Shown piece after piece: positions 4,178-19,442 of a DNA stretch of 64,000 nucleotides. Each line of letters begins with the position of its first letter. The first letter of the stretch is position 1. The position numbers and the translations under genes are program-made. The stretch is taken from NCBI GenBank assembly GCA_000155695.1, contig DS990592.1, forward strand, positions 1,450,556 to 1,514,555. The letters are read 5' to 3'. Origin of the DNA: Verrucomicrobiia bacterium DG1235 (lineage in GTDB: Bacteria; Verrucomicrobiota; Verrucomicrobiia; Opitutales; Opitutaceae). The notes beneath the pieces were generated by a model. It worked only from the letters and a program-made list of their open reading frames with translations, did no database searches and was not told the DNA's origin.

Positions 4178-7100
4178 ATGTCTCGAATCGTAAACCTTGT
4201 CTTGCTGACCCAGATGCTTCTGCTGAGTGTCTGCACGGCTGATGCCGCAACGGCCAATGGCATAGAGCAGCATCCCTTGCCAGTTCGGCTGGCAGACGAG
4301 GATGGTACTTTGTTTACCACGCTTCCGCCTGAGCGGACCGGGATCGATTTTTTCAACAGCTATGATGATCCGCGCATGTGGGACCAGCGCTACGAAGCCT
4401 TCGCTTTCGGGTCGATCGGCACCGGGGTCGCTATCGGGGATTTCGACGGCGACGGGCGAGCGGACATCTACTGCGCGGGAAAGACTGAAAGTGGACGACT
4501 TTACCGGAACCTAGGCGACTGGCGGTTTGAGGATGTGACGGAGACCGCCGGACTGTCCAAGGCAGATGCACATTGGGAGTTGGGCACAGCATTCGCGGAT
4601 ATCGACAACGATGGAGACCTTGATCTCTACGTTTGCCGCGCGTACGCAGCCAACTTGCTATACGTCAACCAGGGCGATGGCACCTTCGTCGAGGCTGCCG
4701 AACCTGCGGGCTTAGGAATCGTCGATGCCAGCGTTATGGCAAGCTTCGGCGACTTCGACCGCGACGGCTGGCTCGACGTTTACGTCGTAACAAATTTGCT
4801 CGACATAAAAGCCGCGCCTCATGGGCAGATCGATCGTCTCTTTCGGAATCTCGGCGACGGAACATTCGAAGAGGTAACCGACGACGCCCGGATCTTCGGA
4901 GCGAGCCAGGGCCATGCCTCCGTATGTTGGGATCCGGACGAGAATGGCTGGCCCGATCTTTACGTCGGCAAGGATTTCGCAACGCCCGATCAACTCTATT
5001 TCAACCGGTCCGGAGCTGGATTTGCGGACGTCATCGACCTCGTAGCGCCCTACTTTCCGTACTTCGCGATGGGGATGGACGTGGGCGACGTGAACAACGA
5101 TGGCAGACTCGATCTGTTTGTTGCCGACATGCTGCCCACTTCACGAGAGCAGTACGTGAGCGGCATGCTCAACATGCAGGCGAAAACCGCAACCGATATA
5201 CCGACCCAAGCGGCCGCCCAATACATGCGGAACATGCTCTTTCTCAACACGGGCACCTCTCGCCTTCAAGAGGCTGCCATCCTCGCCGGAATCTCCGCCT
5301 CTGACTGGACTTGGTCGGTTCGCTTCGAAGATTTGGATGAAGACGGGCGGGTCGATCTGCACGTTACAAACGGAATGTTTCGAGACTTTTTGGACGCGGA
5401 CTTCCTGGCCCGAGTAAACAAATTGAAAGTCTCGAGCCGCAAGCATCTGGTAAAAACCGCTCCTGAGTTACGGGAGAAGAACATGGCCTTCCAGAATCAC
5501 GGCGATCTGCGATTCGAGAACGTCGGCGAGAAATGGGGCCTTGATCACAGAGGCATTAGCTTCAGCACCAGCTTTGGAGACCTCGATGGCGATGGCGATC
5601 TTGACTTGGTTTTCTCCAACTACAACGGAGTGCCAACCGTGTGTCGTAATGACTCTTCGAATACGCGCCGCGTGTTGGTCGCGCTTCGCAGCTCGACATC
5701 CAATCGCTTCGGAATCGGCGCCCGTCTGAAAATCGAAACTGTCGCTGGCACACAGGTGAGAACAATAGCTTCCGCGCGCGGCTACCTTTCCACTAGCGAA
5801 CCGGTCGCTCACTTCGGTCTCGGAGCGGCTGATAAAATCGAGCGGATGACGATTCACTGGCCCAGCGGACGGGTTCAGGTGATTGAAAATCTCGCCGCGG
5901 ACTATCGCTACACCATTACAGAACCAAAGGTGAAAACGGACCGGGTGGCGCCGCGTCCCTCGCCTCTGTTTCAGAACATCTCTGATCAAGCGGCTTTGTC
6001 GGTCACCATGGACGAAGAATCAGTGTACGAGTTTGCGGAGCAGCCTTTGCTACCAATGCGCCAGCATACGCTCGGTCCCAGCCTCGCGGTCGGCGACTTA
6101 GATGGAAACGGCATGGATGATGTGCTCATTGGCGGCGTTGCCGGACAGCCGCGCCTTCCGCTACTGCAGGTGGGACTCAAGCATGTCGTTTCGAAAAGCC
6201 CTGCCCTGAAAATTGCTGCGGAGACGCCTGACGCCTCAATGCTGATTTTTGAATCCAATGGCGACGAACACCCCGATTTGCTGGTCACAAAAGGTGGCGT
6301 GAACCGCCCCCCATCTGACGCCGCGTATCAGCCACAGCTCTTGCTCGGGCGCGGAAACGGTTCGTTCACCAAAGCGCCAGCCGATGCCTTGCCGGATTTT
6401 CATGTCAGCGCCGGACCGGCTATTGCCGCCGACTTCGATCGAGACGGACCACTTGATGTCTTCATCGGGGGCAGAGTCGTTCCCGACAACTACGGCAAGA
6501 CGCCACGCAGCACTCTCTGGCGAAATATTGGTGGCCGCTTCTTGGACGTAACAGATGCCGTCGCTCCGGGACTCAAAGAAGTCGGCCGAGTACAAGCAGC
6601 CTTATGGAGCGACGTGAACCAGGACGGCTGGGTGGATTTGTTGATCGCGACCCATTGGGGCGGCGTTCGCTGCTGGCTGAATCACGAAGGGAAGCGTTTT
6701 GCGGAAGAGGAACTCGGATTTGCCGCCGCTGGCGCTGGCTGGTGGAACTCTATCGCCGCTGCTGATTTCAATGGCGACGGAATCGTCGACTACGCCGTGG
6801 GAAATTTGGGACTCAATACGCGGTATCGCGCCACGCCCGAGCAACCGGTGGCTCTTTTTTCCGGGGTCTTCGACCAGACCGGCCGCACTCAATTGATTGA
6901 GTGCGAAACAGTGGATGGACGATTAATGCCAATTCGAGCCCGTGACTCGCTGCTCGCGGCTTTGCCTTCACTACGACAACGCGTCCCAAGCTATCACGAC
7001 TACGCTCGGGCCACTGCGGAGGAAATTTTCGGTGCGGACCAACTGGCGGCCGCACACCGACTCGAAGCGACAGAGATGCGCAGCGGCGTGTTCTTGAGTT

Positions 7101-7741
7101 CCGTTGATGGAGAAGGACACCAGTTCATATTCAAGCCATTGCCTCGCGTCGCTCAAATCGCCCCCATTTTCGGTATGGTCGCAGGTGATTTCGACGGCGA
7201 CGGGCACGCCGATCTCTACGCGGTGCAAAACTCGCACACGCCCACCCCAGAGATAGGCAGGTTCGCCGGAGGAATTAGCCAACTCCTGCTCGGAAACGGG
7301 AAGGGGGAATTCACAGCGGTGGAGCCCCAAGAAAGCGGACTCGTCGTTAGCGGAGAGGCCCGCGGACTAGCGATCAAAGACTTCAATCTCGACGCTTGGC
7401 CTGACTTCCTTGTTTCCCGTCGCGAAGCGCCAACGATGGCATTCCTCAACCTCCCAGCGGCCACACACAGCAGTTTCAGCGTCCGTCTAAAAGGCAACAA
7501 AGACAACCCGACAGCCACCGGAGCACGCGTGACTGTAACGCTCGAGAGCGGCATTATTCAAGCAGGCGAAGTGTATTCAGGAAGCGGGTACATAAGCCAG
7601 TCAACATCTACTCTTTTCTTCGGGTTCCCGCAAGACGATCCACCGCAAGAAATACGTGTCGAATGGCCACAAGGCACGACCACCGCGCATCCCTATTCCC
7701 CCGGCCTGTCCAAAATGGAGCTATTCGCACCTGAAATGTAA
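4178..7741 (+). CDS. CRTAC1-like FG-GAP/ASPIC-UnbV exported protein
   Basis: This is a 1187-aa secreted protein. The ATG at 4178 gives a good signal peptide (MSRIVNLVLLTQMLLLS..., cleavage near ADA at residue 23); an ATG 15 bases upstream is also possible. I count about 13 DxDxDG-type FG-GAP/VCBS loops, such as DFDGDGRADIY, DIDNDGDLDLYV, DVNNDGRLDLFVA, DFDGDGHADLYAV. They are arranged as two long propeller regions. Each region is closed by an ASPIC/UnbV-type domain, at about residues 514-575 (GARLKIETVAGTQ, GYLSTSEPVAHFGLG, IHWPSGRVQVIENL) and 1115-1175 (GARVTVTLESG, GSGYISQSTSTLFFGF, VEWPQG). The layout suggests an internal duplication. ASPIC/UnbV proteins are common in Verrucomicrobiota and Planctomycetota, but their biochemical role is unknown. 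It is divergent from the VCBS/TPR pair. Confidence 0.88.
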   Translation: MSRIVNLVLLTQMLLLSVCTADAATANGIEQHPLPVRLADEDGTLFTTLPPERTGIDFFNSYDDPRMWDQRYEAFAFGSIGTGVAIGDFDGDGRADIYCAGKTESGRLYRNLGDWRFEDVTETAGLSKADAHWELGTAFADIDNDGDLDLYVCRAYAANLLYVNQGDGTFVEAAEPAGLGIVDASVMASFGDFDRDGWLDVYVVTNLLDIKAAPHGQIDRLFRNLGDGTFEEVTDDARIFGASQGHASVCWDPDENGWPDLYVGKDFATPDQLYFNRSGAGFADVIDLVAPYFPYFAMGMDVGDVNNDGRLDLFVADMLPTSREQYVSGMLNMQAKTATDIPTQAAAQYMRNMLFLNTGTSRLQEAAILAGISASDWTWSVRFEDLDEDGRVDLHVTNGMFRDFLDADFLARVNKLKVSSRKHLVKTAPELREKNMAFQNHGDLRFENVGEKWGLDHRGISFSTSFGDLDGDGDLDLVFSNYNGVPTVCRNDSSNTRRVLVALRSSTSNRFGIGARLKIETVAGTQVRTIASARGYLSTSEPVAHFGLGAADKIERMTIHWPSGRVQVIENLAADYRYTITEPKVKTDRVAPRPSPLFQNISDQAALSVTMDEESVYEFAEQPLLPMRQHTLGPSLAVGDLDGNGMDDVLIGGVAGQPRLPLLQVGLKHVVSKSPALKIAAETPDASMLIFESNGDEHPDLLVTKGGVNRPPSDAAYQPQLLLGRGNGSFTKAPADALPDFHVSAGPAIAADFDRDGPLDVFIGGRVVPDNYGKTPRSTLWRNIGGRFLDVTDAVAPGLKEVGRVQAALWSDVNQDGWVDLLIATHWGGVRCWLNHEGKRFAEEELGFAAAGAGWWNSIAAADFNGDGIVDYAVGNLGLNTRYRATPEQPVALFSGVFDQTGRTQLIECETVDGRLMPIRARDSLLAALPSLRQRVPSYHDYARATAEEIFGADQLAAAHRLEATEMRSGVFLSSVDGEGHQFIFKPLPRVAQIAPIFGMVAGDFDGDGHADLYAVQNSHTPTPEIGRFAGGISQLLLGNGKGEFTAVEPQESGLVVSGEARGLAIKDFNLDAWPDFLVSRREAPTMAFLNLPAATHSSFSVRLKGNKDNPTATGARVTVTLESGIIQAGEVYSGSGYISQSTSTLFFGFPQDDPPQEIRVEWPQGTTTAHPYSPGLSKMELFAPEM

Positions 7742-9645: not shown

Positions 9646-12072
9646 TTAGATTGATCTCAATATTTCCTGGGGATTTGATCGAGTGATTCGATCCGACACG
9701 AACCATGTCGTCGCAACGCTGGCAACCGTGATAACCACGATCAGGGCCAGACTCGCGAGGAAGAAAAACGTGTCCAACTCGCCGCCAAAGCGGGCGTGAA
9801 ACTTAAAGCTCGCCGCGAACAGGGCCAAGCCAAGCCCGCAACCAACTATGAGCGGAAGCATGAGCTTGCGAATCACCAGATTGTTGAGCTGCTGGACCGT
9901 TGCCCCAAGTGCGAGCCGAATTCCCCACTCTCTCGAACGCTCAGTTACGTTGAACGCCATCTGCGACCCGATTCCAAACAAGGAGAGCAGCAGAGTCGCG
10001 GATCCGAAACCGACAAACACAAGATACATGAGCGACTGAATGGAAAGATGACGATCCAACAAATTTTCGATCGTATCCACAGTCAGACCTATATCGGGAT
10101 AGCGCTGTTTCAGCTCCGTCTCGAATTGCTCAGCCTTAAACGTATCCGGATTTCGAACACGCGTAATAAAGGTGCTAAACACCCAAGGGCTTTGCGTATA
10201 AGGCACGAGGATCTGAGGATTCGGCTCGTCCGTCACGTTCACCTGAGCATAGTCGTCGACCACTCCGACGACCTGGCGAAAGTCCGGCACCATCCAAGGC
10301 ATGATCTGCACTTGCTGCATCAGCGGATCTTCGCCAGCGGCAAGGTACTTCTCCACAAAGGCCTTGTTTACCATGGCCACCTTTTGCGATTCCCGATTAT
10401 CCCAGTCGGAAAACGAGCGCCCTTCAAGCAATCCGATCTTCATCGAATCGAGATAGTCGAGACTCACGCTATTATAGCCCGCAGTCACCGCTTCATCACG
10501 CTCTGATACAAGATCGCGACCCTGTAGTTGAAAACCGAATTCAAGCTCAAATCCAGCCAACGGAGCGCTCGACGCTAGCGTCGCGTCCGAAAAATCGCTC
10601 CGACCGCTAAGCCACTCATCCATCTCCGAATAGAATTCGGACAACCCGGGCAAATCGAACATACGGGCCTCCCCGGGCGATACCGTGATCATGAGCAAAT
10701 TCCGTTCGTCAAAACCGAGATCGAGCTCACGCAAACGCTGATATTCATGCACCACTAGCAGCGCCGCTTGCAAAATCGCCACCGCGACCGCGATCTGACC
10801 CGCCAGCAAAGCCATTCGACTCCGTCCGCTCTCGCGGCTCAAGCCATGACGAGACTCGCCGCTCTTGATGATGTCGTTCGTATTTGAGCGCGTGACTTGA
10901 TACGCGGGCAACAGTCCGAAACTGAGACTCGCGAGCAGAGCGATCACGAGAATCGTCCACCCCAAAGAGCTCGACATGCTCACCTCGTTCAAGCGCGGCA
11001 GAAACATGTTCGGCAAGATCGAATCTACGTTCTTGATAAACAGCCACGACAGCACCCAACCCAGACCGCAACCGGCAAAACAGATCGCGCAAGATTCCAT
11101 AAACGCCCGCGCCATCGCCTGCTTGGGACTCTCGCCTATCGCTTGACGCACCCCATTTTCGCTCCGACGCTGAAGACCGCTGATCAGCTGAATATTCGCG
11201 AGGTTCAAGCAAGTCGCAAACATCACCAAACTCACCGCTACCAGTATCAGAATCAAAGGCGTGGAAAAATCGCCCACGATCATCGTCTGCAGCAAGTCCA
11301 TCGTCGCCCCGCGACCTCGGTTGGTCGCCGGAAACTGTTCTTCCAAATCGTTAGCGATCTGTCCGAGTTCCTGGCGGGCCGCCTCCTGGCTCACGCCATC
11401 CTTAAGCCTGCCCACTACGTTCCAGTAGCGCGAATCTCGCACAAAGTACTCTCCCGTCACATCCGGAAACGGCGTCCAAACATCCGCAAAAGACGGTTCG
11501 TTAAACGATTTCGGCATGACTCCAATTACCTGATACACCACTTCATCGAACCAAATCGAAGAGCCTACGATATCCTCCGTTCCGGAAAACTCGTCCATCC
11601 AAAGATCGTAACTGATGACCGCCGAACGGGCGTTCTCCGATAGAAAGTCGTCGTCATCAAAAAAGCTGCCAAGCTCGGGATGAATCTTAAGCACCAGAGC
11701 AAAGTCACGCGTCACCTTCGCCCCATAGAGCTGACGCGTATTCCCGTCGTCTTCCTTGTAATTGAGAAACTGCCCACGGTACGCGAACAAGCTGGTAAAC
11801 GACTGCTGACGCTCCCGAAAGTCCCGGAAGTCGGCCAAGGCCATGAAATTGAGCACCTCGCCTGTCTTTTCATCCACGGATTGAATTCCATAAAGCTCTT
11901 GGCTATCGGGAAACGGCAACGGCTTGCGGACCACCACATCAGTGACCGTCCAAAGAATCGCCACCGCTGCGGAGCCGAGCGCCAAGAGAAGGATAGAGAG
12001 CGCCGCCTGAAAGGGTTTACGTTTCCAATAGCGAGCGGAATCTCGAACGAGGAGAGCAGGATAAATCGACAT
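9646..12072 (-). CDS. FtsX/MacB-like ABC permease (ADOP-type), no ATPase domain
   Basis: The product is 808 aa. An N-terminal membrane helix (about 20-43) leads into a MacB-type periplasmic domain (YGIQSVDEKTGEVLNFMA, VIGVMPKSFNEPSFADVWTP). An FtsX block of three helices follows (LILILVAVSLVMFATCLNL, then CFAGCGLGWVLSWLFI and ILVIALLASLSFGLLPAY). After one further helix comes a second periplasmic domain, and a C-terminal FtsX block has three more helices. This duplicated architecture matches the 'acidobacterial duplicated orphan permease' group. Such proteins work with a separate ATPase, and none is encoded nearby. I chose the ATG at 12072; the longer frame adds 14 unlikely residues. Upstream lies the 37-bp repeat. 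Before the island arrived, its upstream neighbour was probably the response regulator, suggesting two-component control of the permease. Confidence 0.85.
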   Translation of the reverse strand: MSIYPALLVRDSARYWKRKPFQAALSILLLALGSAAVAILWTVTDVVVRKPLPFPDSQELYGIQSVDEKTGEVLNFMALADFRDFRERQQSFTSLFAYRGQFLNYKEDDGNTRQLYGAKVTRDFALVLKIHPELGSFFDDDDFLSENARSAVISYDLWMDEFSGTEDIVGSSIWFDEVVYQVIGVMPKSFNEPSFADVWTPFPDVTGEYFVRDSRYWNVVGRLKDGVSQEAARQELGQIANDLEEQFPATNRGRGATMDLLQTMIVGDFSTPLILILVAVSLVMFATCLNLANIQLISGLQRRSENGVRQAIGESPKQAMARAFMESCAICFAGCGLGWVLSWLFIKNVDSILPNMFLPRLNEVSMSSSLGWTILVIALLASLSFGLLPAYQVTRSNTNDIIKSGESRHGLSRESGRSRMALLAGQIAVAVAILQAALLVVHEYQRLRELDLGFDERNLLMITVSPGEARMFDLPGLSEFYSEMDEWLSGRSDFSDATLASSAPLAGFELEFGFQLQGRDLVSERDEAVTAGYNSVSLDYLDSMKIGLLEGRSFSDWDNRESQKVAMVNKAFVEKYLAAGEDPLMQQVQIMPWMVPDFRQVVGVVDDYAQVNVTDEPNPQILVPYTQSPWVFSTFITRVRNPDTFKAEQFETELKQRYPDIGLTVDTIENLLDRHLSIQSLMYLVFVGFGSATLLLSLFGIGSQMAFNVTERSREWGIRLALGATVQQLNNLVIRKLMLPLIVGCGLGLALFAASFKFHARFGGELDTFFFLASLALIVVITVASVATTWFVSDRITRSNPQEILRSI

Positions 12073-12211
12073 GATAGGAGTATGGCAGAGGTTGAAGGTT
12101 TTGTGATGTGCCAAAGGTCACCTGAAATCGCGAAATTTCTGTATGACGAAAGTCACATCACAATAATCTCGTACCCTAAGGGAGACTCAACGTTACAGCG
12201 ATCCGCTCATT

Positions 12212-12248
12212 GCAGCCCCGCTAATAGCGACTATACCAAACCTAAATC
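12212..12248. repeat. 37-bp direct repeat, copy 1 (island boundary)
   Basis: Identical over 37 bases to 18761-18797. Read on the minus strand it begins with the last 18 bases of the response-regulator coding sequence, including the stop codon, although no regulator gene is here. It continues with 19 bases of that gene's 3' flank. It lies 15 bp past the stop codon of the last island gene, so it looks like a duplicated insertion or attachment site. Confidence 0.9.
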
Positions 12249-12263
12249 ACTCTACCGAGCATG

Positions 12264-13508
12264 CTAGTCCGAACGACCTTTCTTGGTTCGATACGCTAGA
12301 ACAGCGACCAAAACCAGAACGAAACCGACAAGCCAATGCCAGACCTCGGTAGATTCGGTTCCCAACGACTCCGTTGTTTCCTCCAGGTCAGCGCCCACCG
12401 TATCCTCTGGGTCGATCTGCTCACTCTCTTTCCGGACGGTCTCTTTCGTTTGAGAATCAATATAGACTACCGGAATCGCATGGAAACCCTTTCGCTCAAG
12501 TACACCCTGTTCGAAAATCTCCGGCATCCAAACAATCTCTTTATCATTCAAGAAAGGAAGAAACCGGTAAGTCAACTGCCGTCTCCTATCTATTTCGAAC
12601 AGGGTTTCGTTCAAGCCAGATTCTTCGAGAATTTGTTCTTTTGAGTAGTGACCTCTGTAAAACTTTTTTTCTAGCAAGAAATCCTTTGTATAAATCGCCT
12701 CTATATTTCCCGTCCTTATGTAGGGATTGTTCCGCTTTCCTAGCAAACTGGCTATTTTATTATACAGTTGAATTGGATCTAAGGTTATAAGAGCGGGTTC
12801 AGATACGAGGAGTTCCTTGATCCACCGCGAAGTACGACCGCGCTGTATGTAATGCAGGCTTTGCCCTAAGAGGTAGTCGGTTGCATTTCCTTTATTTATT
12901 CCTTGAAAATAGGGATCGCGCATAGGCGAGTAGTAGGCGACTCGGTTTTCATCGTTAGGCAAGATTCGAATCTCACCCGAAAGCAAGCCCTCGACCTCGA
13001 GCGACTCGCCTAGCTCGCCTTCAAACGTGATGCAACAAAGCGAGAGAACATCGGCCAGTACTTCGGACTCAGGAATTCGATTCTGGGTCAGGATCCAATC
13101 AACTTCATCGAATAACTCAGCCTTAGACAGCGTTTCGTCACCATGGAGAAAATCCATCAACTCAAATAAAGCATAGTCGTCTACAAAGGCGTTAATGGTT
13201 AAGCTAAGCATCCGTTCAGCCGCAATCTCGCTACTACGGAGTAATTCCTGCAATTCCACAAGTTGTTCGATAGCGTCATGACTCGCATCTAGGCTCGAAT
13301 CGAATACATCGAGCAAAGAAATATAGGCAGCCTTTCCAATCTCGGGCACCTCGAACGTCTCTCCACTTTCAATCTGTTTTACTAAATAATCGACTGAGGG
13401 ACTGTCCTTGCCTTCCTGAGCGAAGGAATAAGTAAGAAGCGGGAGACCGCACAGGAAGAGCACTAAGCGTACAATAAATCTCGAACAATTCATAGCGGAT
13501 GGCGTCAT
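12264..13508 (-). CDS. Uncharacterised exported protein with C-terminal membrane anchor (island gene 3)
   Basis: The 414-aa product has a hydrophobic N-terminal segment (SRFIVRLVLFLCGLPLLTYS) that looks like a signal peptide. A mostly acidic, helical body follows, then a single C-terminal membrane helix (about 388-407, HWLVGFVLVLVAVLAY) ending in a basic tail (RTKKGRSD). It is thus predicted to be inserted with its body outside the inner membrane. I do not recognise a family or catalytic motif. The start at 13508 overlaps the TGA of the 1236-aa gene as ATGA; a second ATG at 13493 is possible. The coupling suggests that the anchored protein works with the giant exported protein. An acidic, Glu/Thr-rich linker precedes the anchor. 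Codon and base use is more AT-rich than in genes outside the repeats. Confidence 0.75.
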   Translation of the reverse strand: MTPSAMNCSRFIVRLVLFLCGLPLLTYSFAQEGKDSPSVDYLVKQIESGETFEVPEIGKAAYISLLDVFDSSLDASHDAIEQLVELQELLRSSEIAAERMLSLTINAFVDDYALFELMDFLHGDETLSKAELFDEVDWILTQNRIPESEVLADVLSLCCITFEGELGESLEVEGLLSGEIRILPNDENRVAYYSPMRDPYFQGINKGNATDYLLGQSLHYIQRGRTSRWIKELLVSEPALITLDPIQLYNKIASLLGKRNNPYIRTGNIEAIYTKDFLLEKKFYRGHYSKEQILEESGLNETLFEIDRRRQLTYRFLPFLNDKEIVWMPEIFEQGVLERKGFHAIPVVYIDSQTKETVRKESEQIDPEDTVGADLEETTESLGTESTEVWHWLVGFVLVLVAVLAYRTKKGRSD

Positions 13509-16500
13509 GGCAACACTTCAACATTCGAACCCAAATCGACGAGTTGGCCGATTTCAAACTCTAACAGTGCCACCTGGCCACGCGTACCATAGTTGCCGGT
13601 AGCCGTAGCTCCACTTTTACCGCTAGAGGTCTGTATGGATGCAGCAGCTCGGGAAGCATTCGCAGGGATCTCAATGCCGGCGAACACAGGATTATTCCCT
13701 TTCTCGTTGAAGTAGTTGAAATCAAATACGTCCCGAACGAAAAAATTCACTAGAGGAGTAGGATCGACCTCGTAGATAGCTCCAATTTTCGTGGCCACGA
13801 CTCGAATAGTACCTTGGGAATCTGTTGGTCCGTTGCCCACAGTAACACCTCCGAGTCCTATTGAATTAAGTGCACCAAACTCGAATGTCAGATTCTTAAG
13901 GGGTAGGTCGATCGCTTTTGGTCCAGTTGAAGACGTCTTCGTATATTCGTAATCGATATCCGTGAAACTTGCCGCGATAAAGCCTCGTATCTTGTCTTTG
14001 AATTCGTCTGAATTCGCAATGCGTAGAGAGGCTGGAGAACCAGAGGACCATCGAAACTTTGGAACCTTTGCCAGACCGTTTACATATGGACGAGTACCAG
14101 TCGAAGTTTCCGTATGAGGAGTGGAAATAAGGTTGAAAGTAGCACCGTTAAGATGCGTTATTTTTTTGAATTCAAGATCAACCAATTGAGTTGGAAGATC
14201 GGGATTATAGCCGAATAAATTGTTTCCGCCACCCATGAAAATGTCATGGGCAACGTCCGCAACGAACGTCAATCCTGCTTTGTATATCGAGTAAGCCGAT
14301 AGTCCATTTTGCAGTTCAGTGAAAGAAATCCCATACACCTCATATTCGCCCTTGACTTCAGAATTACCGGTAAGCCTGCCATCCCCATCAAGATCCTTGC
14401 CAAATTGAACTACGAAATCCTCCTCAAATTCCTCGAATTTGATTCTATGACTAAAAGTAGCTGGCCCAGCTGAAATGACTGACATCTGCGGAAGATTAGG
14501 ATCGTTTGCTCCGTTTCGGTTCTCGATTTCGACCCATACTGGTCCATGAGCACGAGAGGTTCTCAGCATATCAAACTCAACCAGTGCCCCTTCTTTTCTC
14601 CAAATAAGAATCTTGTTCCGAGCATCTTGACTAGGGGATGACGGTACCCGTGGATCATTCAGACCAACTCTATTAGCGTTTTGTGCAGTTTCTCGTATAT
14701 CTAGTTCCAATGGGTACACATCAGCTATAAACAATTTAGAATCTACATTTGTGCCATTGTAGTGAGTAAAAGAAACTTCGATATCACCAGCATTCTCGCT
14801 TAAAATTCGCCCATCCAGATACAAAATCTCGCCTAGGTTGACAGCAGACCAAGACTGACCGTTCACATACTCCTGAGTCATTTGTATGTCTTTCCAGACT
14901 TTAAGCCTACCAGTTCCTGATTGAGTCAATTTCATTTCGACATAACCGTAACTTTCACCATAAAATGGATTTAGTATCGCAACCAAATCATCTTCGTTCG
15001 GAGCATCCGAATCGTCATTTATGGGCACATGAATAGTTTCGCGGCTCTTACTCATAAAAGTAAAAGTCAAATCGATTGGAAAATCACCTGGAAGGTTGAT
15101 ACTCACGCTAATTGACGGTGAAACCTCTCCAGTTGTTATATACTCGACAGTTTTCTCGTATAAAACGTCACCAATACTTTTCATTTTCACCTGCACAACC
15201 CTACCAGACCCTACGCCTAGCGGATCAAGAATAATGCCAGTTGGAATTTCTAAGTCGAACACACTATTACCTGTACCTCCTACATTCCTTGTCACATTAG
15301 TCACAACAGGCTGCAAACTTGTAAATTGTTCGAAGATCCCATCACCGTCCAGATCCGAACCTAAGCTAGACAAACCGGGAACCACATTTCCACTCCCACC
15401 ATATGGAGTGCCCATTCTAACAACTCTCACTACATTCGGTTCGTGCTTTATCCCACTGTAGTCGCCAAAAACGACTTGAAAATCACCTGACGCACCTGCT
15501 TGAACATCTAATCCCTGATTGACCCATCCCCCATTATCTAAACTATTGCTGGATTGGATACGATAAACTCCCTCTTCATAAGCGGGATAATACTCCATGC
15601 GATTGCTAATTCCAAAGACCTCAAAATTGCAGTTGGTTTCATGAACCCAAACATTACTTGCGATGGAATAGTCCCAACCCCAATTTCGACCAAAAAATCC
15701 ATTAATTCGGTCAGAAATTAGCGTAAAGCTGGTAGAACTGGCTATTCCTAACCAACCACTAGTGCAGTAAGACACATAATCCGGAACGTGAAACATCAGC
15801 AGCCCACGATAACCAGTACTTGGAGCTCCGTATCGAACATACGCGTCATAAACATACGGATTTTTATTCGGAGTTACATAGTCCTCAACATAATCATAAA
15901 TACCGTTACCATCGACGTCTACCCACCTCTCAGTCTCATAGGGTGGATCATCAGAACTAACCGTAAAAGAAATTGTATCTTGCTGAACGATTCCACCTGA
16001 CGAATTGTGAAAGTTCGCCTGTACTGTATGGTTACCTGAGTAAGCCGGCAATATATGATAATGATACGGTGGATCAACATCAGTAAACTGCCAACTACCA
16101 TCAAGAAAGAACTGGACGTAATCGACTGTGGATGAATTCGTAGAGGCGGTTATAGCAATTTGCTGTTTGTTGTAAAAATTAGGACCAGGGGAGATTAGCG
16201 GATCAAAAGTTAGTCCAGAAGTGAGAGCTTGAACGCTCACGTTTACGTTCGCCGAGGTGACTTTAGATCCTTCGTCATCCTCAACCTGAACTTTAAACGT
16301 AGAAGTTCCAGAGGCCGCATTCGAGTAGGTCCAACTAAAACTCGTCTGAGAGTCACTCGGATTGCTGATCGTGTGTACGAGCGAATTATTCCTGTAGAAT
16401 CTAACGTATTTTAAACCACCAGGATCAGAGCCCACGACATATACCGTAACGGATTGCCCGGCCTCTATGCTGCCGCTCGAAACTGTCGGTGTATTCACAG

Positions 16501-17215
16501 TCGGGGTCTTGTTAACCCAAGTTACCGTTTTAGTCGGTGAAGCGCTCGATGAAGAGTTGTCATTATCCGTCGAGATAGCATAAAAGCTATAGGAACCAGG
16601 CGTGGAGCGCGATGTACTGTAAATATAAGCAGCCGATGTGTCGGTCGTGACCAAGGCACCGTTTCGATAGAATTTAACATTTGCTATCGTTCCGTCCGAA
16701 TCGCTAGCGCTTGCGGATACCGTAACCGATGAACCTTCATAGGGGGATGCGGGAGAAGCAGAAAGGGAACTTACTGTTGGAGCTTGATTTGCAGTCGCGC
16801 CATTTACCGTCAAATACTTATAAGAGGTTTTCTGAGCGTTCACACTACCGATTGTCGGACCATTTTGATACGTACCTGTTATACTTGCTCTAATTGCCCA
16901 ACTCCCTGCAGAGCTAGGGGAATAGTTGAAGGACGCACTATTTCCGGAACTGAAGGCCGTGGAAGATATGGTTCCAGCTATCATTTCAGAACCTCCTGGA
17001 GGTGTTACATGGATGTACGCGACGCCACCAACCCAATTATCTCCTGACGATTTTGTTATACTCACAGTAACGCTCACCGAACCCCCAAGTGAAATCGTTG
17101 ACGGAGAGAGAGATACCGAACTTGCCTTTGGAACGGCGTAAACCGCGACCGGCAAAACTGAACAGGTAAAAACAATTAGCGATTTGAAAACAAGTGGATA
17201 CTTGGAAAAGAACAT
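13505..17215 (-). CDS. Giant exported protein with Ig-like repeats, unknown C-terminal region (island gene 2)
   Basis: The product is 1236 aa. The signal peptide covers residues 1-27 (cleavage at VYA|VPK). Three or four Ig/PKD-like beta modules follow at about 30-425; two contain near-identical VKFYRNGALV and VRFYRNNSLV strands. A Ca-binding-like loop (WVDVDGNGIYD) and a second one (LGSDLDGDGIFEQF) lie in the middle, and a third (FGKDLDGDGRL) further on. The C-terminal 200 residues form a distinct domain with a FVRDVFDFNYF motif and a Gly/Ser/Ala-rich stretch, ending LGSNVEVLP. No LPxTG, PEP-CTERM or T9SS-type tail is present, and no protease triad is seen. It is probably secreted or surface-exposed and adhesin-like (inference). 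It follows island gene 1 by 41 bp and overlaps gene 3 by 4 bp. Confidence 0.78.
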   Translation of the reverse strand: MFFSKYPLVFKSLIVFTCSVLPVAVYAVPKASSVSLSPSTISLGGSVSVTVSITKSSGDNWVGGVAYIHVTPPGGSEMIAGTISSTAFSSGNSASFNYSPSSAGSWAIRASITGTYQNGPTIGSVNAQKTSYKYLTVNGATANQAPTVSSLSASPASPYEGSSVTVSASASDSDGTIANVKFYRNGALVTTDTSAAYIYSTSRSTPGSYSFYAISTDNDNSSSSASPTKTVTWVNKTPTVNTPTVSSGSIEAGQSVTVYVVGSDPGGLKYVRFYRNNSLVHTISNPSDSQTSFSWTYSNAASGTSTFKVQVEDDEGSKVTSANVNVSVQALTSGLTFDPLISPGPNFYNKQQIAITASTNSSTVDYVQFFLDGSWQFTDVDPPYHYHILPAYSGNHTVQANFHNSSGGIVQQDTISFTVSSDDPPYETERWVDVDGNGIYDYVEDYVTPNKNPYVYDAYVRYGAPSTGYRGLLMFHVPDYVSYCTSGWLGIASSTSFTLISDRINGFFGRNWGWDYSIASNVWVHETNCNFEVFGISNRMEYYPAYEEGVYRIQSSNSLDNGGWVNQGLDVQAGASGDFQVVFGDYSGIKHEPNVVRVVRMGTPYGGSGNVVPGLSSLGSDLDGDGIFEQFTSLQPVVTNVTRNVGGTGNSVFDLEIPTGIILDPLGVGSGRVVQVKMKSIGDVLYEKTVEYITTGEVSPSISVSINLPGDFPIDLTFTFMSKSRETIHVPINDDSDAPNEDDLVAILNPFYGESYGYVEMKLTQSGTGRLKVWKDIQMTQEYVNGQSWSAVNLGEILYLDGRILSENAGDIEVSFTHYNGTNVDSKLFIADVYPLELDIRETAQNANRVGLNDPRVPSSPSQDARNKILIWRKEGALVEFDMLRTSRAHGPVWVEIENRNGANDPNLPQMSVISAGPATFSHRIKFEEFEEDFVVQFGKDLDGDGRLTGNSEVKGEYEVYGISFTELQNGLSAYSIYKAGLTFVADVAHDIFMGGGNNLFGYNPDLPTQLVDLEFKKITHLNGATFNLISTPHTETSTGTRPYVNGLAKVPKFRWSSGSPASLRIANSDEFKDKIRGFIAASFTDIDYEYTKTSSTGPKAIDLPLKNLTFEFGALNSIGLGGVTVGNGPTDSQGTIRVVATKIGAIYEVDPTPLVNFFVRDVFDFNYFNEKGNNPVFAGIEIPANASRAAASIQTSSGKSGATATGNYGTRGQVALLEFEIGQLVDLGSNVEVLP

Positions 17216-17256
17216 TAGAGGATAGCGTTGATTGTTATTGCTTTAAAAACTTCACT

Positions 17257-18123
17257 TTAGCCACGAGGTCGTGACATGTATTCGACTAGTAAAGAACTGC
17301 CTGTTTCCTCAACTATTTCACTGCGCTTGATTCCACCATGCCGTTCAGCAAACGAATCAGGAATTCCATCAGAATTTTCATCTACGAAGAGAGGGTTTTT
17401 GTCAGTAACCCGCACTCCCCTTACACTTGTTTTTTCTTTGGCTACAGATTCAATCAAAAAGTTCTCTGAACGTTTGGAGTAAGGTAAATCCGCCAAAACA
17501 ATATTCCCAAATACATACAAATCCCAAATCCCAGAAATCTCATCCACACGCACAACAATTGGAATATGTCCCGATATATAGCCACTCTCCGAAACATCAA
17601 AATAGATGCCCGTACGAATCCAATTCTCAGCTGCTTCTACTCTCTTTTTGCCATTCGACTTTGAACCTACCCATGCTACCAGCTCGGCCATCCTCGCCCC
17701 TTCCGTTTCGCCTGCGATTCTCAATCCCATAACAGCACCCCCCATATCTATGGTCGGAATTTTCTCGATAACATTATCTTTTTTTCCAAGTGATGGACTC
17801 ACTCGAATTTCATAAAAAGTAATAGTATTGGTATCGTCTGAGTCTCCTTTGCTCCGTTTTCCACGAGTTTTAAGAAAGCGCTTTGGATAATCAATCTCAA
17901 CCTCTCCTTCACCTTCTATTAAGAACCGTGTTGGGGCCCCGTCTTCGTCAACCGACTCGAGATTCCTAATTTTCGCATCACCCTTTTCACGAGCCCAACC
18001 AGAAGAGTCTACTCGCCATTTCGAGCCGGAAACTTTGTCTTGAGCATTAGCGTAACATATTCCGCTAGTAAAAATTAACACACAGAGTAATACAGGCAGA
18101 AAACCAAAACGTTTCGTATTCAT
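17257..18123 (-). CDS. Uncharacterised exported protein with Ca-binding-like C-terminal loop (island gene 1)
   Basis: The 288-aa product has a signal peptide at residues 1-27 (cleavage near ANA|QD). The body is beta-rich with no recognised domain. Near the C-terminus is DENSDGIPDSFAERHGG, which resembles the DxDxDGIPDxWE loops found in many verrucomicrobial exported proteins (thrombospondin-3/dockerin-like calcium sites). An early segment (GSKWRVDSSGWAREKGDAK) has the look of a lectin-like strand, but I cannot assign a family. It is the first gene of the three-gene island unit, preceded by a long AT-rich leader. The similar calcium-loop style to the 1236-aa protein suggests that both act outside the cell in one assembly (inference). 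Confidence 0.75.
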   Translation of the reverse strand: MNTKRFGFLPVLLCVLIFTSGICYANAQDKVSGSKWRVDSSGWAREKGDAKIRNLESVDEDGAPTRFLIEGEGEVEIDYPKRFLKTRGKRSKGDSDDTNTITFYEIRVSPSLGKKDNVIEKIPTIDMGGAVMGLRIAGETEGARMAELVAWVGSKSNGKKRVEAAENWIRTGIYFDVSESGYISGHIPIVVRVDEISGIWDLYVFGNIVLADLPYSKRSENFLIESVAKEKTSVRGVRVTDKNPLFVDENSDGIPDSFAERHGGIKRSEIVEETGSSLLVEYMSRPRG

Positions 18124-18760
18124 CGGCAGAATTCAGATTAGCTCTTCACCAGAATGAAATACTGGAAGAGTATTTAATACTAATATTGATAAGGGGTGGG
18201 GCGTAAAACGTCCCGTTAGCGGGACATAAGAACAGGATGAACTATCGTTAATCATTCCTAAGCAATTCACGCAACACAAACACTTAAGGAATAAGTATTT
18301 TACTAAAATTTCACAAAAATATCCTAAAAAACGCAAATGACTTTAATAGTACAAGTAGCAGTTTCTTCTTAACTACGATCTAAAATTTGAACACATATCC
18401 CGTATTCAAAGTTTAGTGTCCCATCCACTTCTCTTTCACTAACAACTTTCTTATTTTACTAGTCTAATTTTCGAAAATGGAACAATGGAAAAAGCAAAAT
18501 GTAATTAGACGGAATTTGCACTAGCTTCACATCCGAACGAAACATTTCAGTCGACTAAAAAACTGACTACTTGCGGTCTCAAATCGGTAACCAGAGACAA
18601 AATACCAATCCTTACTCTTTGACATCTACCTTGAAGAGCAACGTCCAAAAATCAGATATTTAAACTTGGCTCTCCCATCTACCCGATTCCTCCCCGAACA
18701 ACACGTTATATTAATTCTACCGTGTTTTCCCTGGAACCACTCCTGCAGCAGTTACACCAA
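18124..18760. other. 637-bp AT-rich non-coding leader of the island operon
   Basis: No convincing gene is visible on either strand. Two short minus-strand frames have no start context or domain. The segment is strongly AT-rich and holds one perfect hairpin at 18210-18225. It probably contains the promoter of the three island genes, which read away from it, but several AT-rich hexamers could serve and I cannot choose one. Confidence 0.5.
18210..18225. promoter_or_regulatory. Perfect 6-bp inverted repeat in island leader
   Basis: GTCCCG-TTAG-CGGGAC forms a perfect 6-bp stem with a 4-base loop, about 87 bp upstream of island gene 1. No T-run follows on either strand, so it is not an obvious terminator. 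It may be an operator or an mRNA leader hairpin. Its GC-rich arms stand out in an AT-rich region. Confidence 0.4.
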
Positions 18761-18797
18761 GCAGCCCCGCTAATAGCGACTATACCAAACCTAAATC
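18761..18797. repeat. 37-bp direct repeat, copy 2 (within and after response regulator)
   Basis: Identical to 12212-12248. It covers the last 18 bases of the response-regulator gene, including its stop codon, and 19 bases of its 3' flank. It marks the upstream boundary of the AT-rich island. Confidence 0.9.
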
Positions 18798-19442
18798 CCG
18801 CGCCATCAAGGCGGCCTGCGTGCGGTCGAGCACGCCGAGTTTTCCCAGCACGTTGGAAACATGATTCTTCACTGTGCCTTCCGCCAGATCGAGGTGCGAC
18901 GCGATCTCCTTGTTGCTGCACCCGCGCGACAACCAGACGAGCACCTGCTCCTCCCTTTGCGAAAGCGGCTCGCGCAATTGAACCGGAGCCTTTTTGACCG
19001 CGGCTGGACCAGACATTCGACTAAACTCAGCCAACACTTTCGACGCGATCGACGGCTGCAAAAAGGACTCTCCAGAACTCACCGCCCGAATCGCTTCCAC
19101 CAATTGCTTAGATGGCGTGTCCTTCAACAAATAGCCAGACGAGCCTGCCTTCAAAGCCTCGAAGACGCGCTCGTCGTCGTCGAAAGTCGTAAGCGTCAAC
19201 ACATTCACCTCGGGCAGCTCTTGCTTTATCGCCTTCGTCGCCGCCACGCCGTCCATCACCGGCATATTGAGATCCATCAATACAATCTGCGGCCGCAGCC
19301 TGCGACAAGCCTCCAAGGCTTCCTGACCGTTATGACACTCGCCCACGATCTCGAGCGAATCGTCTAGCGACAGCAAGGTCTTCAGCCCTTCGAGAAACAG
19401 GGCCTGGTCATCCGCAAGGACTATTTGGATACGGTCAGTCAT
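18780..19442 (-). CDS. NarL/LuxR-family response regulator
   Basis: The 220-aa product has an N-terminal receiver domain with the acidic pocket D11-D12, phospho-acceptor D57 (IVLMDLNMPVMDG) and the Lys of YLLKDTPS. A LuxR-type helix-turn-helix follows (LSQREEQVLVWLSRGCSNKE, then EGTVKNHVSNVLGKLGV). It would bind DNA as a phosphorylated dimer. I chose the ATG at 19442, which overlaps the kinase stop codon as ATGA. Longer frames run inside the kinase gene. The last codons lie in the 37-bp repeat shared with 12212-12248, so the C-terminus may have been rebuilt by the insertion. It still ends with the family-typical ALMARDLGLV. The likely target is its own operon and the permease now 6.5 kb away (inference). 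Confidence 0.93.
   Translation of the reverse strand: MTDRIQIVLADDQALFLEGLKTLLSLDDSLEIVGECHNGQEALEACRRLRPQIVLMDLNMPVMDGVAATKAIKQELPEVNVLTLTTFDDDERVFEALKAGSSGYLLKDTPSKQLVEAIRAVSSGESFLQPSIASKVLAEFSRMSGPAAVKKAPVQLREPLSQREEQVLVWLSRGCSNKEIASHLDLAEGTVKNHVSNVLGKLGVLDRTQAALMARDLGLV

Follow-up and report, generated by a model that had tools for sequence, protein, structure and literature searches.

The window analyzed here, a 64,000-nucleotide (64-kb) stretch of the Verrucomicrobiia bacterium DG1235 genome, contains an island of 6,512 bp (12249..18760) between two copies of a 37-bp direct repeat, at 12212-12248 and 18761-18797 (spacing, 6549). The gene-proximal copy (18761..18797) includes the last 18 bases of a response regulator gene with Response_reg and GerE domains (18780..19442, minus strand; start placed by eye at the ATG of 19442), corresponding to the codons D-L-G-L-V-stop, plus 19 flank bases. 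The distal copy (12212..12248) carries the same 18 bases, displaced from the gene, and the same 19 flank bases, and adjoins the upstream region of a MacB/FtsX-type permease gene (9646..12072, minus strand; start placed by eye at the ATG of 12072). A preliminary description of this DNA had reported this arrangement and called the repeats perfect. Both statements hold: the copies are identical and are the only two in the whole 5.78-Mb genome at up to 3 mismatches, and a reversed control sequence gives none. By our own arithmetic, the chance of an exact 37-bp pair in 64 kb is about 1e-13. A direct-repeat scan of the window (seed, 16; length, at least 26 bp) detects one other family only, comprising four 36-nt copies with 64-83% identity at 4436-7219. 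Inspection of the 37-bp repeat by eye reveals no attC core motifs of the kind found in integron cassettes.

The island holds three consecutive genes transcribed in the same direction, all on the minus strand. Gene 1 (17257..18123, 288 aa) encodes a small predicted exported protein; its family is marked by an NPLF-D-N-G-D motif at the C terminus. Gene 2 (13505..17215, 1236 aa) encodes a large predicted exported protein with Big_7 Ig domains (best at residues 146-211) and shares an ATGA overlap with gene 3 (12264..13508, 414 aa), whose product has a signal peptide and a C-terminal membrane helix as predicted by eye. Full-length gene 2 matches 14 of 37 other genomes, in every case within residues 27-365, the Ig part; its C-terminal 801 residues (about 436-1236) have no match in 386 other genomes of the phylum. 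Gene 3 yields nothing in the 37 relatives except one match at E 0.28, and none in the 386 other genomes. Searches of genome contigs, viral contigs, and plasmids identify no relatives of genes 2 and 3, and the part of these collections searched with gene 1 likewise gives none. Gene 1 has no match in the PDB; in PHROGs it shows a weak match at residues 11-47, the signal-peptide region, to a family of unknown function. AlphaFold models of gene 1 (mean pLDDT of 39.5) and gene 3 (35.3), each predicted from a single sequence, are too poor for a fold search.

The G+C content of the island is 43.9%, compared with a mean of 54.9% (standard deviation of 0.6 points, minimum of 53.3%) in 177 windows of 6,512 bp outside it. 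The three island genes have GC3 values of 0.35, 0.39, and 0.50, versus 0.60-0.72 in eight flanking genes. The comparison of base composition and codon bias thus agrees with the earlier characterization of the block as AT-rich and unlike its flanks. The island is compositionally foreign and, as part of the overall explanation that we favor, was probably acquired horizontally. Its 637-bp non-coding end (18124..18760) is 36.9% G+C. A scan for promoters and terminators detects no excess over shuffles.

The regulator gene end and the corresponding sites in relatives

We searched for the regulator in 38 genomes, including that of DG1235 and seven others of the same genus. Five of these seven (G001, G003, G004, G006, and G007) hold an orthologue with 67-88% identity; the best matches in G002 and G005 (32-40%) were taken for paralogues. 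The permease gene directly follows the regulator in four of the five (G003, G004, G006, and G007), and the two are also adjacent in G019, a member of another genus, where the permease is 43-47% identical. The neighborhood table behind these counts left out loci L033-L047, which had been brought in by gene 2. At L096 in G001, the permease is absent from the 19-kb stretch read and a different, opposite-strand gene comes next. Because the regulator directly adjoins the permease in four of the five orthologue-holding genomes of the genus, the block is, as judged by sequence comparison, an insertion that left the regulator 3' end intact.

Alignments of the flanks place the border of this insertion at the repeat. 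When joined, the flanks in the window align on either side of the junction with the sites of all four same-genus genomes. The 60 bp of host flank past the distal copy match the intergenic region of relatives so well that only 0-2 of 300 shuffles do as well, whereas the 60 bp of island end show no match, with 133-278 of 300 shuffles as good. We count the ending of similarity at the repeat in favor of insertion at the 37-bp site. The preliminary description had proposed site-specific integration at the 3' end of the gene, with an empty site in relatives carrying a single 37-bp copy. The insertion, the intact regulator end, and the foreign composition partly support the first part of this proposal; the exact empty site is not seen in relatives. 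Their regulator tails and following bases differ from the 37-bp sequence, and a search of 251 other genomes of the family for a 28-base core of the repeat, allowing up to 3 mismatches, finds no copy. By the wording of the preliminary description this is a contrary result, yet the nearest relatives are other species, and we do not think it decisive at such divergence (67-88% regulator identity).

The regulator tail GAT TTA GGT TTG GTA TAG is unlikely for the host (P of 0.001 against the 3,053 codons in eight flanking genes, in a test chosen after the codons had been seen). This is a hint only that the last five codons were perhaps supplied by incoming DNA; both repeat copies are identical, so a foreign tail would require an earlier integration or gene conversion. 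The aligned relatives conserve a motif resembling TGACC(TTT or AA)GGCACAT upstream of the permease gene (12085-12170), which the island leaves undisturbed. It may be a binding site of the regulator.

Recombinases in the island and in the genome

The island contains no visible recombinase, as had been stated. Pfam, NCBIfam, PHROGs, and PADLOC identify no recombinase, transposase, phage, or defense families in the three genes, and neither these genes nor the non-coding end match integration or transfer gene families. Pfam searches of the 637-bp non-coding end in six stop-masked frames reveal no recombinase remnant, and Rfam has no match. Four integrases encoded elsewhere in the genome reach at best an E value of 0.2 against the island by tblastn. 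We found no second element in tandem beside the island in the window, no exact copy of a 20-base repeat core in viral contigs, and no relative carrying the island's genes plus an integrase among 37 relatives and 386 other genomes of the phylum.

The genome itself has 12 Pfam Phage_integrase matches in 11 places. Within the 11 corresponding stretches, extending 20 kb around each, no site similar to the 37-bp repeat is present, the best match being 11 bp. At one of these genomic loci (L089:9355-15934; C6 near 2951000), an integrase gene adjoins the tmRNA gene, and a 26-bp direct repeat lies at a distance of 6.2 kb; this is an ordinary integrase-borne island. Two other integrases adjoin tRNA-Met and tRNA-Phe genes. 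Several further tyrosine recombinases of the genome look like integron integrases and Xer proteins. Those resembling integron integrases, of about 310-485 aa, are at L084, L085, L086, L087, and L088; those at L084 and L085 lie beside repeat families, and the copy at L088 is broken by a stop.

Related cassettes and their flanking repeats

Gene 1 is the one component of the island with relatives in comparable surroundings. G019 encodes a 286-aa protein that matches it (30% over 184 aa; E of 1e-13); the next two products are an exported protein of 594 aa and one of 299 aa with a membrane helix at its C terminus. With a two-sequence profile, gene-1 homologues are detected in 60 of 252 family genomes at an E of 0.001 or lower; at 1e-6, a 16-sequence profile detects them in 70 of the 331 genomes searched in the order. 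DG1235 is included in both counts, and many of the matches are domains inside larger proteins. We read 21 stretches (20 fetched plus L093) and called a gene-1 homologue in 18, the exceptions being L143, L144, and L150. In most stretches of sufficient length, a standalone homologue opens or closes a group that also includes one large exported protein and another exported or membrane protein. At least one ATGA overlap occurs in six cassettes, including that in the window, as counted among junctions already overlapping by four bases.

The neighboring genes vary among cassettes. The large proteins contain Ig or fn3 domains in L136, L141, and L142; that of L137 has an alpha/beta-hydrolase domain (DUF900, over the cut-off), and those of L093, L132, and L133 form another related set. 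The 1236-aa protein of the window has no match at 1e-3 to 13 other large proteins. The third proteins could not be joined into one family: the 414-aa protein reaches an hhalign probability of 0.7% against the others, phmmer gives no hit at 1e-3 among 14, and some of the others show weak HEAT_2 matches below the Pfam cut-off. By sequence similarity, then, the block in the window is tied to the other cassettes by gene 1 alone. Genes adjoining the cassettes at L133:4838-5959, L137:10835-11524, and L142:14834-15934 end in a similar coiled-coil-like tail, KVEELTL...; neither Pfam nor NCBIfam gives a family match above the cut-off.

Nine cassettes with usable flanks, others of the 18 lying too close to contig ends, were tested for bracketing repeats, defined as at least 35 bp at 85% identity within 4 kb on each side; these thresholds were set after the repeats had been seen. 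Four of the nine are bracketed (L093, L134, L137, and L147) and five are not (L136, L142, L146, L148, and L149), with only 2.3 kb available on one side of L142 and 3.3 kb on one side of L149. In three of the nine, the bracketing repeat is unique and derives from the end of a neighboring gene. The repeat at L093 (321 bp, 92.5% identity) extends from the final 116 bp of a PQQ-type gene up to and including the final 47 bp of an M56 peptidase gene. At L147, the repeat (402 bp, 88.6% identity) covers the 3' end of an amidohydrolase-like gene and is nearly identical in its central part and diverged at both ends. At L137, it consists of 47 bp, exact, from the 5' part of tRNA-Leu. No recombinase was found among the scanned cassette genes of L093 and L137; for L147, the scan covered a portion of the insert.

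Other repeats were discounted: at L134 there are three direct copies plus inverted ones, at L138 both copies lie within Ig-repeat coding sequence, at L142 the repeat is 25 bp with further copies, and at L132 the 45-bp repeat (91%) has additional partial and inverted copies, and the right flank measures only 313 bp. A 217-aa gene at L137 is reminiscent of an integrase N terminus but gives only a weak DUF6538 match and an E of 0.14 to an integrase. At this cassette, which lies between the tRNA-Leu copies (L137:4093-12834), a second stretch, of 48 bp near the left copy, resembles part of this gene, which lies at the other end (81%), as if an older element had once stood there.

As a control, 5,800 placements were drawn at random in 29 regions; 58 of them are bracketed, 57 of these in a single region, and any such repeat at a spacing of 2.5-9.5 kb occurs in 3 of the 29 regions. 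The binomial probability of 3 in 9 is 8e-5 at a 1% rate and 0.020 at a rate of 2/29. Fisher's test gives 0.075 for 3/9 versus 2/29, and 0.028 for 4/10 (with the window included) versus 2/29. Because the thresholds were fixed after the repeats were seen, the excess of repeats around related cassettes is suggestive only.

Entry of the island and comparison with known systems

We consider it probable that the block is a small, horizontally acquired island that entered by a single crossover of a circle, mediated by a tyrosine integrase that has been lost or acts in trans, and that it is now non-autonomous. Circular DNA would have carried the three exported-protein genes together with the regulator's last 18 bases and their flank. 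One crossover between this circle and the chromosome, within the 37 bp that both shared at the regulator gene's 3' end, would have left one repeat copy at each end of the island and the regulator gene intact. The enzyme would most likely have been a tyrosine integrase, since lost from the island or acting from elsewhere in the cell. We infer the circle, the enzyme, and its loss or action in trans. A tyrosine integrase is our first choice because the repeat is short, exact, at a gene end, and within the range described for such enzymes; for the tyrosine recombinases of IMEs this range is 8-60 bp, and 3' ends of protein genes are included among the targets (PMC5704250). The integrase with its 26-bp repeat at the tmRNA gene of the same genome counts for this explanation. 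Against it we count the absence of a recombinase or remnant from the island, of the 37 bp from the sites in relatives, and of a similar site near the genome's own recombinases, in the 251 other family genomes, and, as an exact 20-base core, in viral contigs. In addition, the spread of repeat lengths around the related cassettes, from 47 to 402 bp, argues against one enzyme with a fixed core.

The main rival, possible but distinctly less likely, is that no dedicated recombinase was ever involved and that a circle with a borrowed gene end enters, and can leave, where short stretches are identical, through recombination that is either homologous or RecA-independent; this has been proposed for the H47 island of E. 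coli and for unconventional circularizable structures. The lack of a recombinase in the island counts for it, and the long, imperfect gene-end repeats of L093 and L147 fit it better; the near-identical center and diverged ends at L147 are the pattern expected from gene conversion around a crossover. For H47, excision was seen by PCR without any tested recombinase (PMC5426353, PMC3191183), although its authors did not exclude a PCR artefact (PMC5426353). The repeat in the window, however, is exact over its short length, similarity ends where it ends, and it is more like an integrase core than diverged homology. A broader form of the idea, which we regard as doubtful, is that cassettes of the gene-1 type (P288, after the 288-aa product) make up a family of mobile gene blocks, without recombinases, in Opitutaceae and kin. 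Each would combine a small exported protein with an exchangeable large one, also exported, and with a third protein that is exported or in the membrane, and would enter by recombination of a borrowed gene end with the same gene in a new host. If the family reading were true, repeat length and divergence would record recombination rather than the site of one enzyme.

It is improbable that the block was never mobile, the 37 bp having been duplicated by ordinary rearrangement (tandem duplication and deletion, or break repair copying the target) with foreign genes entering the same break. Such an origin would suit the lack of any mobility gene, the compact, operon-like arrangement of the three genes, and the absence of the 37-bp sequence from all relatives searched. 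On the other hand, the foreign DNA starts and stops exactly at the repeats, the gene end is intact, and chance rearrangement would not predict related cassettes between gene-end repeats at three unrelated loci. A transposon with a 37-bp target-site duplication would leave an insert flanked by direct repeats but is very improbable, as there is no transposase, none of the 17 inverted-repeat pairs found sits at both island ends, and target duplications by DDE enzymes are far shorter than 37 bp.

Some related bacteria have related blocks bracketed by repeats that derive from other gene ends, and for this reason the island may be one example of a traveling surface-gene cassette. If cassettes of exported proteins do travel between gene-end repeats without an enzyme of their own, the unequal length and divergence of these repeats at unrelated genes make the mechanism testable. 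A literature search for islands in Verrucomicrobia or Opitutae gave no publication that describes this cassette in its title or the opening lines of its abstract.

Among known systems, the island in our preferred explanation resembles a CIME (cis-mobilizable element), defined as an element that lost its integration and transfer genes and retains attL and attR (PMC5704250). Like a CIME, it is without integration or transfer genes; it differs in that no trace of a parent ICE or IME was found and in having no known integrase partner for its repeat. H47 is likewise small, flanked by direct repeats, and devoid of a recombinase, with a cargo of one functional system (PMC3191183, PMC5426353). Its repeats are 146 and 148 bp with 77% identity, in contrast to 37 bp and exact, its cargo is unrelated, and its mobility has been assayed. 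Unconventional circularizable structures (UCS) also lack recombinase genes and have flanking direct repeats (PMC7843796). These repeats are described there as long; extensive direct repeats of over about 100 bp, a feature of both H47 and UCS, are absent at the window and present at L093 and L147, which fit better. With the integrase-borne islands in Islander, the block shares a regenerated target gene and a displaced fragment that mark its ends, and relatives have sites without the block, though not the exact 37-bp attB; but Islander requires an integrase in the island and a tRNA or tmRNA target, and here there is neither (PMC4383910). Most island catalogues require an integrase or a tRNA target (e.g., Islander, PMC4383910), so blocks such as the one described here would be missed.
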